Part shown: positions 18,193-26,909 of the stretch, one piece after another
Layout of the letters: the number at the start of each line of letters is the position of its first letter
Numbering within the stretch: the first letter of the stretch is position 1
Source of the DNA: a virus
DNA length: 26,909 nucleotides
Strand: one strand, 5' to 3'
Virus record (IMG/VR): IMGVR_UViG_3300047463_000143
Coordinates: 1 to 26,909 of that record
Made by a program: the position numbers and the translations under genes
Notes under the pieces: generated by a model
Told to the model about the DNA's origin: nothing
What the model saw: the letters and a program-made list of their open reading frames with translations, nothing else
Database searches by the model: none

Positions 18193-18353
18193 GGCCCAGA
18201 CCAAGACCCAGACCAAGACCCAGACCAAGACCCAGACCAAGACCCAGACCCAGACCAAGACCCAGACCTAGACCTAGACCCAGACCTAGACCTAGACAAA
18301 GACCCAGACCTAGACCTAGACAAAGACCCAGACCAAGACCTAGACCCAAACCA
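18193..18353. repeat. hexanucleotide tandem array AGACCN, 25 units
   Basis: Between the convergent gene blocks lie 25 consecutive hexamers AGACCN (18198-18347), preceded by AGGCCC and followed by a degenerate AAACCA. Only the last base varies (C, A or T), apart from two AGACAA units. A higher-order pattern is visible: the first eight units alternate A/C, and the 24-base block AGACCC-AGACCT-AGACCT-AGACAA occurs twice in a row (units 14-17 and 18-21). Both strands stay open in one frame: Arg-Pro on +, Gly-Leu on -. No start with a ribosome site is seen, so I list it as a repeat. Confidence 0.95.
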
Positions 18354-20784: not shown

Positions 20785-21004
20785 TATTTTCCTTTATCAA
20801 TTTGTATCTTGCATATCGTTTTCCCCTGTCATTAATCATTTCCATTGAAATGGAATGTCCTTCACGTTTTAAATCATCAATGCGAGCCGCAAGCCTCATA
20901 CATTTTGCATCTCTGAGAGCATCCATGGGAGTGATCGGCCCTCTACGCAACATTGATAGAATTAAATTTGTTTGTTTATTTCCTTGTTGAACTCGTCGGC
21001 CCAC
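20777..21004 (-). CDS. winged-helix / helix-turn-helix phage protein
   Basis: A 75-residue protein with the pattern NLILSMLRRGPITPMDALRD, AKCMRLAARIDDLKREGHSI, followed by KRYARYKL. This is the well-known small helix-turn-helix module (ITPxxAL...C.RLAARI.DLR..GH.I) common in recombination and replication blocks of phages of Pseudomonadota. It has one HTH and a short beta wing, and DNA binding is likely. The GTG at 21004 is the only start upstream of the domain; it lies 43 bases inside the RecT-like gene, with AGGA directly before it. It may regulate the block or assist replication. Confidence 0.75.
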   Translation of the reverse strand: MGRRVQQGNKQTNLILSMLRRGPITPMDALRDAKCMRLAARIDDLKREGHSISMEMINDRGKRYARYKLIKENNG

Positions 21005-21858
21005 TCCTGTACCGACTGAGACTTTTTTTCAGACTGATCCTCCACCTTTATTTTTTTTGCAATCTCAGCGTAAATGCTGCTGGCTTCAACCAATCCAATT
21101 CGCTGAAACGTTGTTGTGTTGGAACGTTTCAACTGATCTAGTTTTTCCGCTTTCTGATCCGCTGGCATTTTGCTAGATACCACGCGGTTTACCATTTCCA
21201 TGAATGCGCTTACCCAATCCGCTTTGGAGTTGAGAACCGTTGATCCTTTATTTGGAACAACAAATTCCCATTCTTCGATCACATTATCAGGCATATCCTC
21301 GATAGTGCTCATGACAGGTTTTTTAACGTCCGCAGCATCGACGATCTGCACGTTACCCATGTCTTTAACCGGTGGGCGTTGAACATCAAAATCCTGAACC
21401 TCCTCCGGCGTATAAATGCCAACCACGCAACCAGGGAAAACTGTCCGAATTCCCTCACTGATGACTCTCGCTCGGAGCATGGCCCTGGGGTAATTTTTCC
21501 AATTATCTTTTTCTGCCAAACCAATGCGTTTGGCTTGATCTATTGTCCAAGAAATTGTCACCCCGCCGCCAGCCGGATGAGAAAACGTGGCTTTTACCTC
21601 TTGGTCGGTGTAAACGTCCCAGTTAATTTTTCCACCTGTAGACTGAAATCGAGCGAGCATTGCATCAGCTTTGAGAGCTGGCCTGCCCTGAATAACGTGA
21701 TAGTCCCTAGCGGCGATTGCCGGGTGCATACCCTCGGCCTGGGCAATCAGCATCAAAGCAATTGCCTGATCTGCATTTTTCATTCCGAATAAACCGCTTT
21801 TGGCAACAGCATTGCCCATGAATTGAATTTCATCCATCGTTACCAGTGCATTACTCAT
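20962..21858 (-). CDS. RecT-like single-strand annealing protein
   Basis: A 298-residue protein. The core ADQAIALMLIAQAEGMHPAI, AARDYHVIQGRPALKADAML, ARFQSTGG, the strand region VTISWTIDQAKRIGLAEKDN, then YPRAMLRARVISEGIRTVFP is the phage family annotated as RecT-like recombinase in many genomes. The C-terminal 90 residues are variable and polar. It should anneal complementary single strands made by the exonuclease encoded two genes upstream. ATGA couples it to the small gene upstream, and its ATG has a ribosome site AAAAGGAA within that gene. The family call is firm; annealing activity is by homology. Confidence 0.8.
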   Translation of the reverse strand: MSNALVTMDEIQFMGNAVAKSGLFGMKNADQAIALMLIAQAEGMHPAIAARDYHVIQGRPALKADAMLARFQSTGGKINWDVYTDQEVKATFSHPAGGGVTISWTIDQAKRIGLAEKDNWKNYPRAMLRARVISEGIRTVFPGCVVGIYTPEEVQDFDVQRPPVKDMGNVQIVDAADVKKPVMSTIEDMPDNVIEEWEFVVPNKGSTVLNSKADWVSAFMEMVNRVVSSKMPADQKAEKLDQLKRSNTTTFQRIGLVEASSIYAEIAKKIKVEDQSEKKSQSVQEWADEFNKEINKQI

Positions 21859-22091
21859 TTTGATTCCTTTTTAATAAATGGGATTTTTAGTTTTTTCTGG
21901 TTTTTTCCTGGGAAAAGTTCCTCAGCGCATACCAGATTTCCAGCGACGTAATAACTTATCCTACCGTAATGATTTTTATGTACTTTATCAACCACACCGA
22001 CATAGGGTTTCCCCCGATGTTCAAACGGATAAATTGCAACTACATCTCCAACCTTAACATATTTTTTTTTCCAATCAATACCGTGTTTCAT
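21855..22091 (-). CDS. small beta-rich hypothetical protein between recombination genes
   Basis: A 78-residue basic protein. KYVKVGDVVAIYPFEHRGKP, YVGVVDKVHKNHYGRISYYV AG looks like a single SH3-like or chromo-like barrel, with a basic C-terminal tail. It sits between the exonuclease and the annealing gene with 4-base overlaps on both sides, where lambda-like systems often place small partner proteins. It could bridge the two proteins or bind DNA. No family is recognised. Confidence 0.7.
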   Translation of the reverse strand: MKHGIDWKKKYVKVGDVVAIYPFEHRGKPYVGVVDKVHKNHYGRISYYVAGNLVCAEELFPGKNQKKLKIPFIKKESK

Positions 22092-22978
22092 TTCACCAAA
22101 AACCTTCTGGAACCTTCAACCTCTTTGACATACATTTTATAGGTTTCGGGTAATGCTTTTTCAAATGCTTTGGCATCGAATTTCATGGAGTTTTTTGCTT
22201 GCTTCCACGTAACCAAAGTTCCGTTATTTCCATCAAGAATTGATTTTTTCCCCATGAAAGTCATGATTCGAGTGGTGAGTGTTATCTCATCTTTTTCAAG
22301 TTTCGCAATCTGATCCTTGATAGCTCGCAGTTGCATCGCATCCATTTCAATGTTGGGCGTTGCGACGATTGACGTTCCATCATCGGATTTCATAATCGCT
22401 CTTAAATCGTCTGGATGTCTTGCTGCTGGTGGAGTGCGCGTTTGAATCGCAGCCCAAAGTTCTGCTTCCTGCTGGATCAAAACTTCTTTGTGGGCATCTT
22501 CAATGTTTATGGGATAAATGCACAGTTCCGCGCCTCCAAACAAAACGCAAAGATTTACATTTTGAACATTGAACACCGCAGCTTCGTGGATACATTGGGC
22601 CAAATCAGCGTCGGGAATGCGCGTTGATCCGTTATCACCGAATTTATCCCTGTTGTACGCCGAATAATTTTTTATTTCAAATAGAGTTTTATTGTCCTCG
22701 CTCACATAGTCAAAGTGGCTTCGCATCCATGGGTGCTTATGGTGAGTGCCTTCAATGTCCAGCTCTTTGAGCCGGATGTTGAGCCTGTCAGCGACTGCTG
22801 TGGCAATCGGAGCCTGGAGCCTCAATCCCCATTGGACGTTTTCCTGGTCAGAAATGTCCTCGATTTCTTTCTGGCCGGTTTTTTCCAGCCATACTTGACC
22901 GATGCGCCCGGATGCAATGCGCCGAGCATCGCCCGACCAGATTGCAGAGTTCCTGTTTTCAGGTGAGAAGTCAGCCAT
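22088..22978 (-). CDS. YqaJ-type viral recombination exonuclease
   Basis: A 296-residue protein from ATG 22978, chosen for the GGAG site; the upstream in-frame ATG at 22996 has none. The nuclease core is visible: helix with RRIASGRIGQVWLEKTG (about 19-35), QWGLRLQAPIA (49-59), FDYV (Asp90) and LFEIKNYS (Glu101, Lys103). It follows the D-x10-E-x-K layout of lambda-exonuclease/YqaJ enzymes that resect one strand of linear duplex DNA. The C-terminal 90 residues (about 210-296) are helical with an extra small domain. It pairs with the RecT-like gene to form a Red-like system for recombination or concatemer repair. Confidence 0.85.
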   Translation of the reverse strand: MADFSPENRNSAIWSGDARRIASGRIGQVWLEKTGQKEIEDISDQENVQWGLRLQAPIATAVADRLNIRLKELDIEGTHHKHPWMRSHFDYVSEDNKTLFEIKNYSAYNRDKFGDNGSTRIPDADLAQCIHEAAVFNVQNVNLCVLFGGAELCIYPINIEDAHKEVLIQQEAELWAAIQTRTPPAARHPDDLRAIMKSDDGTSIVATPNIEMDAMQLRAIKDQIAKLEKDEITLTTRIMTFMGKKSILDGNNGTLVTWKQAKNSMKFDAKAFEKALPETYKMYVKEVEGSRRFLVK

Positions 22979-23168
22979 TATTTTTCTCCAAGGCATTGAT
23001 AAATTCTTTTAGGTTATCAAAATCAGTTTGTTTTAATTTTCCGAATTGTTCTACAAAATCAAATAAATCATCAACATCTACATTGATGCTGAGATTGATT
23101 TTAGAGATATTCCTGATTCGGATTGCCTGTTCTATTTTTGCATCGTTTACATAGATATCGAATAGCAT
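22971..23168 (-). CDS. small acidic hypothetical protein
   Basis: A 65-residue protein with AGGAACT before its ATG. It is rich in Asp, Ile and Asn (DIYVNDAKIEQAIRIRNISK, INLSINVDVDDLFDFVEQFG). It overlaps the exonuclease start by 8 bases and could form a small partner of that enzyme. No family is recognised. Confidence 0.65.
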   Translation of the reverse strand: MLFDIYVNDAKIEQAIRIRNISKINLSINVDVDDLFDFVEQFGKLKQTDFDNLKEFINALEKNNG

Positions 23169-24978: not shown

Positions 24979-25638
24979 CTAAACGGTTGTCGCGGCTACA
25001 GGGGCGTCCTGGCCGGTTTCATGGGCAATTTCTTGCACTACCGGCAAAGGTGCTTTCGCCCATGGTGCGCGTCCCGCGTCGGTGGTGAGATCGGTTCTCA
25101 TTGGCATCACAACAACTAGCATATCCTGGCCAATATAGGCTAGAGAACAGCTATTGCCGCCCCAACCGAAAGTAAACCCTGCGCCGATATCTTTTGCAGC
25201 GTCCACAATGCGGACAAGGTAATCTGGATTGATCCAACAGGCTTGACCGTCCAGGGTTGACGGAATAACGCGACGATAATCGGGAAACGTGCCATCGATG
25301 GCGCGGGTGATAATACTTTGCCCATTCCAGTCGCACCGAATCTCGCCGGAATCCGATATCGAGAGTGTAATCGGTTCATCTTTTAACGATTTCATCGCGG
25401 GTTTCATCTTGAGCAAAGTATTCACCGCGTCCAAAGGCAAGATACCCGTCCATTCGCCCTCATTATCGCCTTTGGCAGCGGCACGATGTACCGCCAGCGT
25501 GTGCCCGTCCGTGGCGCATAAACGCGTCTCCAGCGGGTTAGATTCGACTAACACGCCGACAAGGTAGTATCGGATGTCTTTTACCGCTGCGAAACGGGAA
25601 ATGGCTTTCAGAGCATTGCGATCAATAGTGATTTTCAT
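24979..25638 (-). CDS. incomplete DNA polymerase III beta sliding clamp (DnaN-like)
   Basis: A 219-residue protein against about 366 in bacterial DnaN. DIRYYLVGVLVESN (21-34) and ATDGHTLAVHR (42-52), then ITRAIDGTFPDYRRVIP (110-126), match clamp domain II almost motif for motif. CWINPDYLVRIVDAAKDIG to VVVMPMR (134-181) matches the last half of domain III, including the C-terminal VVMPMR strand. Domain I and the first half of domain III are absent, and a 38-residue tail follows. Residues equivalent to the E. coli partner-binding pocket are kept (Arg23, Leu26, Thr43, Gly45, His46, Leu48, Pro119, Arg123, Val124, Val176, Met178). The leader is TATAGGAATTTACTT. Confidence 0.8.
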   Translation of the reverse strand: MKITIDRNALKAISRFAAVKDIRYYLVGVLVESNPLETRLCATDGHTLAVHRAAAKGDNEGEWTGILPLDAVNTLLKMKPAMKSLKDEPITLSISDSGEIRCDWNGQSIITRAIDGTFPDYRRVIPSTLDGQACWINPDYLVRIVDAAKDIGAGFTFGWGGNSCSLAYIGQDMLVVVMPMRTDLTTDAGRAPWAKAPLPVVQEIAHETGQDAPVAATTV

Positions 25639-25666: not shown

Positions 25667-25716
25667 GATTATCTAGTGATAATCCGCTAGCATCCTATCA
25701 CGGATAAGATGCTAGC
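25667..25716. promoter_or_regulatory. two tandem perfect hairpins between ardC-like and clamp genes
   Basis: GATTATC-TAGT-GATAATC (25667-25684) is a perfect 7-bp stem with a 4-base loop. GCTAGCATC (25686-25694) pairs with GATGCTAGC (25708-25716), and TATC-ACG-GATA continues inside after one mismatch. No T-run follows on either strand, so an operator, RNA-processing site or translation control is more likely than a terminator. Confidence 0.6.
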
Positions 25717-25727
25717 AGGTAGCACTA

Positions 25728-26585
25728 TTAAGCCGCTATGCTTTCCGCTGTAGCATCTAGTGCTTGGATATAGTCTACGGCTTTTTGCGCCAGGGCTGCG
25801 GCCTTGAAAATAGCTTTGCTATCGTCGCGGCAGGCCTTTAGCCAGTTTTCAATGTATCCGGCATGGCGCAGCTCGCCCTGGATGCGGTAATCCGCGCAGA
25901 GAAAGGCCGCGGACATTTCCGCTACCAATTCTTCAAAAGCATAGGCAGGGTTACCGTATTTCCCCTTATCCAATTCCCGGTTTAACCTATGCTTTGCGCC
26001 TGTCCAATGTGCGAGCTCATGAAAGGCCGTTGCATAGTAGTTTGCTTCGCTATCGAAAGCTGTTTTATGCGGTAATTGAATGCGATCTTGACTAGGCATG
26101 TAAAAAGCCGCGTCTCCACCATGCGATATTGTTGCGCCAGTCTTAATAATGCGATCTTCGCAAGCCGGGATAGGGTTGAATTCCCCTTCCGGCTTTTCTG
26201 TCGGGATAATTTGAATGTCGGTTTGCTCAACGTTGAAAACAGCATAACCTCGAATTACGCAATAGTTGGATTCTGTTTCTCCGGTTTCGGCATTTGTTTT
26301 CACGGATACCGGCTTGAAAAATACAATATGCGTGGCTTTTTCTCCGGCTTTTACTTGAATTCCAGCGTCGTTCCATTGTTTATAAGTTGCCCATGATGGG
26401 TTACTGTAACCTTTGGCCATGCTCGCCATTCCGAGCAACAACCGATTAATTCCCTGATAGGGTTTCTGGCTAATGAAATTCTTATCAGCGCTGGAGTCTA
26501 CGCGCCAGGGTTTAATCCATGGTGCGGCGCCTTTTTCCAATTGTTCGATTATGCTATTTGTCACGTTTTCATAAATGTTGTTCAT
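25728..26585 (-). CDS. ardC: ArdC-type antirestriction protein
   Basis: A 285-residue protein from ATG 26585, with AGAGGAATTTATA upstream; the longer frame of 336 codons is rejected. Residues 1-130 are the ssDNA-binding ArdC N-terminal domain (IYENVTNSIIEQLEKGAAPW, PWRVDSSADKNFISQKPYQG IN, ATYKQWNDAGIQVKAGEKAT). Residues about 150-285 are a zincin-like domain with HELAH (189-193) and downstream EELVAE (218-223). Plasmid ArdC protects incoming DNA from restriction. It is the first gene of the leftward block after the promoter region, so early expression is expected. The symbol is by homology. Confidence 0.9.
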   Translation of the reverse strand: MNNIYENVTNSIIEQLEKGAAPWIKPWRVDSSADKNFISQKPYQGINRLLLGMASMAKGYSNPSWATYKQWNDAGIQVKAGEKATHIVFFKPVSVKTNAETGETESNYCVIRGYAVFNVEQTDIQIIPTEKPEGEFNPIPACEDRIIKTGATISHGGDAAFYMPSQDRIQLPHKTAFDSEANYYATAFHELAHWTGAKHRLNRELDKGKYGNPAYAFEELVAEMSAAFLCADYRIQGELRHAGYIENWLKACRDDSKAIFKAAALAQKAVDYIQALDATAESIAA

Positions 26586-26909
26586 TATAAATTCCTCTAT
26601 ATATAGTGCGACCATCCGGGACGCGCGGTACTGCATAATATGCAAGCATTGTGCCATTGTTCGCACTAGGCAATCCATCCTATAAACTCGCAATGTGACG
26701 TAATACGCCGTCACAATGTGACGTAATACGTCACCCATGCAGATATCATGCCAGCAATGGTATGTTAGTACTTACTTACAATAGGTTGACCGCATACGTA
26801 TTTAGATACGCATTATATATATGTAATATATGTTTAATGTGGTATTTATAATATGTATGCTCAGGAAGGTAGTAGGGGCAATTAAGTGTCTGCCACACTG
26901 CCAGCATGG
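26586..26909. other. non-coding promoter/operator region at the right edge
   Basis: No gene is supported. From left to right it holds TGCATA-A-TATGCA (26632-26644), the 8-bp inverse pair TAGTGCGA (26604-26611) / TCGCACTA (26661-26668), the operator-like palindromes listed separately, and an AT-rich stretch with CGTAT-TTAG-ATACG (26797-26810) and TATAAT at 26847-26852. The TATAAT could be the -10 of a rightward promoter leading out of the window; no matching -35 is seen. Confidence 0.6.
26691..26734. promoter_or_regulatory. tandem palindromic operator-like repeats
   Basis: CAATGTGACGTAATACG occurs twice (26691-26707 and 26714-26730), 23 bases apart. The second is part of a perfect 17-base palindrome GTGACGTAATACGTCAC (26718-26734; 8-base arms, one central base). 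The first forms GTGACG...CGTCAC over 26695-26714. They lie about 105-150 bases upstream of the ardC-like start, a natural place for a repressor or activator of the leftward transcript. Confidence 0.7.

Follow-up and report, generated by a model that had tools for sequence, protein, structure and literature searches.

In the window, by which we mean the whole 26,909-nucleotide stretch of viral DNA that was analysed, a 219-residue protein related to the bacterial sliding clamp is encoded on the minus strand by an open reading frame with an ATG start (positions 24979–25638, stop codon included). Upstream of this short clamp lies a gene for an ArdC-type anti-restriction protein with ArdcN and zincin domains (25728–26738, minus strand), and downstream, on the same strand as the clamp, lie genes for a RecE/YqaJ-like exonuclease (22088–22996) and a RecT-like annealing protein (20962–21858). 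This neighbour set is partly kept in relatives of the window, where the exonuclease gene is also found near the clamp. Several repeats occur in the same stretch. The ArdC–clamp intergenic region contains a perfect 9-bp inverted repeat (GCTAGCATC / GATGCTAGC, within 25686–25716), two copies of a 23-bp unit with GTGACGTAATAC lie at the 5′ end of the longest ArdC reading frame (26691–26734) and represent a possible operator, and approximately 13 copies of a 12-bp tandem repeat (CCCAGACCAAGA) lie at 18195–18346, where two gene orientations meet.

The standard description of a bacterial clamp is a closed dimer in which each subunit has three domains. The short clamp, however, has a subunit of only one and a half clamp domains. 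Specifically, the Pfam family of the central clamp domain, DNA_pol3_beta_2, matches residues 10–120 with an E-value of 1.6e-12, above the curated cut-off, and no second Pfam family, the RusA families included, matches at E-values up to 1. A phmmer search against PDB chains likewise aligns residues 10–128 with domain II of beta clamps (best E-value 2.7e-16). In an alignment with full-length phage clamps and E. coli DnaN, the short clamp begins at domain II, which is complete and ends normally (residues 1–126; 25261–25638, minus strand), and continues with the FNxxYL and VVMPMR motifs in the second half of domain III (residues 127–182; 25093–25260, minus strand). E. coli numbering follows the DnaN sequence used in the alignment and agrees with the phmmer matches to PDB chains. 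The same alignment provides no counterpart for domain I and places a gap at the start of domain III, where approximately 60 residues (about E. coli 253–311) are deleted at a junction near residues 129–131 (25246–25254, minus strand; placed to within a few residues). For the half-domain, the full-length proteins were compared after removal of their first half of domain III. The Pfam profile of domain III, an independent model, matches the clamp gene of relatives only over model positions 62–121, 68–121 or 72–121 of 121, and the retained part is therefore the second half; the FNxxYL motif and these positions speak against pairing the third motif of the protein with the domain's first half.

The missing parts also carry the contacts that hold the DnaN dimer together. 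The residues I78, F106, I272 and L273 form the dimer contacts between domain I and domain III (PMC11139829), and both regions in which they lie are missing from the short clamp. The first-pass annotation, made by eye, had read the protein as domain II followed by the last half of domain III up to VVMPMR, lacking domain I, the first half of domain III and the parts needed to close a normal ring; the alignment, the domain III profile and the position of the hydrophobic dimer contacts bear out each of these statements. The same architecture recurs in 236 loci, and by its defining features the short clamp is not a canonical DnaN.

Despite this truncation, the partner-binding pocket, which is an antibiotic target, is intact. 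All 11 pocket residues that had been named at first pass as having equivalents here are present and identical to those of E. coli: R152, L155, T172, G174, H175 and L177 correspond to R23, L26, T43, G45, H46 and L48, and P242, R246, V247, V360 and M362 correspond to P119, R123, V124, V176 and M178, respectively. Additionally, N320 and Y323, which belong to the published list for subsite II (PMC11139829), are kept as N137 and Y140, and M180 and R181 complete the pocket residues of the domain III half. Across 94 non-redundant short clamps, the E. coli residue occupies 87% of the cells at the 11 pocket positions and 21% elsewhere, and no set of 11 positions drawn at random reached the pocket score in 100,000 draws. 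The pocket is among the best conserved parts of the short clamps, and the loss of pocket residues in homologs that the first-pass annotation had named as evidence against its proposal is not what these members exhibit.

In a normal clamp, helix 1 of domain II contributes to the helical lining of the DNA channel. The corresponding segment of the short clamp, helix 1 together with the loop preceding the RYYL motif (residues 6–18; 25584–25623, minus strand), is basic. The mean charge of helix 1 is +2.0 in short clamps, compared with −0.24 in full-length phage clamps and +1.05 in bacterial clamps, and Lys or Arg occupies the position of E. coli H148 in 157 of 235 short clamps, 3 of 27 full-length phage clamps and 1 of 66 bacterial clamps; this comparison is descriptive, because the short group seemingly has one origin and thus amounts to a single observation, and a few full-length proteins are possibly aligned differently. 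The RYYL loop, which adjoins the DNA-contacting residue Gln149 of the E. coli clamp (PMC11139829), is nearly invariant in short clamps. The net charge of the short clamp body is only about zero.

The window protein extends 37 residues past the normal clamp end (residues 183–219; 24982–25092, minus strand), forming a C-terminal tail that full-length clamps do not have and that contains the motif A-P-W-A, with the Trp at W193. Among the 94 members, 72 have at least 8 residues past the MPxR end and 21 have at most 4. A Trp is found in 50 of the 72 tails, most often 10–13 residues past the Arg, and P-x-W occurs in 28, compared with 6.1 (maximum 13) over 300 shuffles. In the model of the window protein, residues 191–200 reach a mean pLDDT of 92, a value that hints at packing of the tail against the clamp body. 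Correlations between individual positions and the presence of a tail are confounded by ancestry. An Ala-Ala end, resembling ClpXP-type degrons, is present in 26 of the 72 tails.

AlphaFold2 predicts the window protein as a confident monomer, with a mean pLDDT of 93.3 and a pTM of 0.83 from an alignment of 74 members. The model superposes on residues 126–366 of the E. coli clamp (6fvl_D) over 174 residues with an rmsd of 2.2 Å and a Z-score of 18.3, and the model thus predicts that the half-domain folds even when the other half is absent. The tail-less homolog of Serratia phage Eta is modelled with similar confidence (pLDDT 92.9, pTM 0.89) and matches the same structures with a Z-score of approximately 14, with a domain II that lacks the second helix. 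Structure prediction of the single chain, a check proposed at first pass, therefore gives a confident monomer for two members. Furthermore, polar residues mostly replace the E. coli leucines L328 and L340 in the short family, whereas full-length clamps mostly have hydrophobic residues at both positions, suggesting a face that is exposed to solvent rather than paired with the other half of the domain.

A tblastn search of phage records matched 202 records, some of which hold full-length clamps, and 159 of them cover at least 80% of the query; the matched phages include those of Salmonella, Klebsiella, Escherichia and Vibrio. Scans of viral contigs gave no matches with a single protein as the query but added hundreds of loci with queries from closer pairs, while a scan of genome contigs returned almost only chromosomal DnaN, which was used as the outgroup. 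By length, the loci divide into 236 (94 non-redundant) with the short form, 27 with a phage-type clamp of full length and 65 with a chromosomal DnaN from bacteria. The median distance from FPD to MPMR is approximately 69 residues in the short form and approximately 114–125 in most full-length clamps. The window protein matches phrog_3007 over residues 1–182 (2.7e-28) and has the features of that group, namely domain II, the second half of domain III and an FPD–MPMR spacing near 69 residues. The phrog_3007 clamps KpV2811 gp36, Serratia phage Eta gp10 and Bcep781 gp15 have the same architecture, although the KpV2811/Eta group differs in having no tail. The recurrence of one architecture in 236 loci answers the earlier question of whether homologs share the internal deletion, and it rejects an assembly error as the source of the deletion.

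In a domain II tree, which uses a region without the deletion, 74 short representatives fall on one side of a single branch with 91–93% bootstrap, a value to be read with the SH-aLRT of only 11 for the same branch and with the few columns (127) available for 108 rows. The simplest reading of this tree is that the shortening probably happened once, long ago. Full-length phage clamps, such as Rhizobium phage 16-3 p081 and Aurantimonas phage AmM-1 gp50 (phrog_947), are DnaN relatives with the same pocket, but they have three complete domains in 350–400 residues and lie outside the short group. Three further phage clamps (L093, L094 and L098), encoded by reading frames of 470–523 residues, have a domain I-like N-terminus, a longer domain III and a long low-complexity C-terminal tail, and they may be intermediates or a separate variant.

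In other branches, the short clamp adjoins genes for a primase, an SF2 helicase, a PolA-type polymerase, an HNH endonuclease and ParB-like proteins. In Serratia phage Eta, the genes for SSB, a ParB-like protein, the clamp and a helicase are consecutive, with a primase gene nearby. Among 48 short-clamp records of at least 36 kb, a PolA match is present in 17 and a match to PolB or Pol III alpha in none, and the clamp loader family PF13177 has no match in 49 records (these 48 relatives and the window), absences that are only suggestive as many of the records are possibly fragments. The complete genomes of KpV2811 and Eta have no annotated DNA polymerase. A search of the clamp flanks for the canonical clamp-binding motif revealed no neighbouring family that is clearly enriched in it and no QL[SD]LF match. 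In Bcep781, the clamp gene (L376, 10433–11014) stands by itself within head genes that run on the other strand, away from the replication genes. In KpV2811 (L374, 23528–26500), ParB-like, methylase and endonuclease VII genes accompany the clamp gene, and the virion genes around them run on the other strand. Both placements are like those of mobile accessory genes.

Taken together, the kept pocket, the strengthened DNA-facing surface and the loss of the known ring-closing contacts favour a minimal clamp-derived DNA tether for clamp-motif proteins that is independent of a loader, a reading to which we assign a probability of roughly 0.4. Such a protein would not be loaded as a ring but would lie on DNA via its basic helix, as a monomer or an open small oligomer, and would hold clamp-motif proteins, most likely host Pol III, Pol IV, ligase and mismatch repair proteins, at phage replication or recombination intermediates. 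Host enzymes are the likely partners, given that PolA is found in only about a third of the larger records and PolB or Pol III alpha in none. That the pocket implies such partners and that the charge implies DNA binding are both inferences, and the Trp tail is predicted either to dock on the body or to engage another partner. The replication and recombination neighbours, as well as the lack of a loader and of a split clamp gene in the records searched, count for the tether; the single-origin charge difference, the net charge of about zero, the lack of a motif-enriched neighbour family and the Bcep781 gene among head genes count against it. The proposed mode resembles that of the herpesvirus proteins UL42 (a monomer) and UL44 (a dimer), which contact DNA directly without a ring or a loader (PMC9690074), except that it would derive from a bacterial clamp. 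The likeness concerns this mode only and does not imply homology; UL42 and UL44 work with the polymerase of their own virus and have been characterised as highly positive, whereas the short clamp is near neutral overall. More tentatively still, the family as a whole may constitute a widespread class of one-and-a-half-domain clamps that forms no closed loader-dependent ring, keeps an intact pocket and holds host clamp-motif proteins on the DNA of phages, many of which have neither a polymerase nor a loader of their own.

The first-pass annotation had proposed a monomeric decoy or adaptor, with a multimer of smaller subunits as an alternative. The adaptor part fits the confident monomer and the polar face, and an adaptor that hugs DNA without a loader is favoured here over a free decoy, with which the basic helix 1 and the H148 position agree less well, and over a small-subunit ring. 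A closed ring of small subunits, acting as a phage processivity clamp that the host loader might place on DNA by way of the retained pocket, seems unlikely. Its arithmetic, three beta-alpha-beta-beta-beta motifs per chain instead of six, and hence twelve from four chains, is not evidence. The basic DNA-facing helix, the retained RYYL loop, the adjoining primase, helicase and polymerase genes and a fold predicted in its usual place all suit a ring, but both halves of the dimer interface are missing (PMC11139829), the surface that would contact the lost half of domain III is polar, and in the Serratia Eta model the lack of the second domain II helix would leave the channel lining incomplete. We rank just below it a soluble decoy, a monomer that would occupy clamp-binding motifs in proteins of the host (Pol III alpha, loader delta, Pol IV, Hda, MutL) and so block or divert host replication during infection. 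Pocket conservation far above that of the remainder of the protein, the loss of the ring interface, the failure to find a phage partner with a clamp motif among neighbouring families and the solitary, accessory-like Bcep781 gene agree with a decoy. Phages are also known to attack the clamp pathway, as does Gp168 of phage Twort (PMC11139829); Gp168, though likewise a phage protein acting on that pathway, is a ligand in the DNA channel of the host clamp, whereas the short clamp is itself built from a clamp. A decoy, however, has no need for a basic DNA-facing helix, which is stronger here than in full-length clamps, and for the roughly two thirds of relatives without a recognisable polymerase, inhibition of host Pol III would be damaging to the phage as well.

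Two other explanations carry far less weight than the tether. In a split clamp, a second phage gene would supply domain I together with the absent half of domain III, and the two chains would rebuild a normal ring. That the absent regions jointly carry the dimer interface (PMC11139829) speaks for such a clamp, but it is very improbable, as no separate domain I/III gene is present in the window and the 48 relatives, and all five weak matches fall by their coordinates inside short clamp genes. The idea that the protein is a RusA-like Holliday junction resolvase, as many phage records and the label of phrog_3007 have it, finds support in the match to phrog_3007 noted above but deserves almost no credence: homology to RusA is refuted by the sole Pfam match, which is to a clamp domain, and by the clamp fold of both models, and the Rus resolvase of Bcep781 is noted as a separate gene (gp22).

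Relative to bacterial DnaN, the short clamp shares domain II, the second half of domain III, the clamp-motif pocket, the RYYL loop and the VVMPMR end, but it is without domain I, the first half of domain III and the dimer interface, and it has an extra tail and a more basic helix 1. No study of short phage clamps was found in the open-access literature, which is weak evidence that none exists. If the tether reading is true, the family separates two clamp functions that are otherwise found together and offers a compact natural protein for studies of the clamp-motif pocket. In databases, short clamps are named 'DNA polymerase III beta subunit', 'putative beta-clamp protein' or 'RusA-like Holliday junction resolvase', the last apparently through PHROG 3007, and the Bcep781 record notes its clamp as 'DNA Pol III b subunit fragment'. 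The RusA-like label is attached to short clamps in phrog_3007, phrog_12598 and many RefSeq phage records, for example NC_054653.1 gp36 (L002, 9001–9537) and NC_004333.2 gp15 (L004, 5998–6579), while both their sequence and their fold identify them as clamps; many short clamps thus carry a resolvase label that can be corrected. A different filing problem concerns CAKLQH020000026.1 (L005), deposited as 'Acinetobacter phage MD-2021a', which has dnaA-dnaN-recF-gyrB and looks like a bacterial chromosome.
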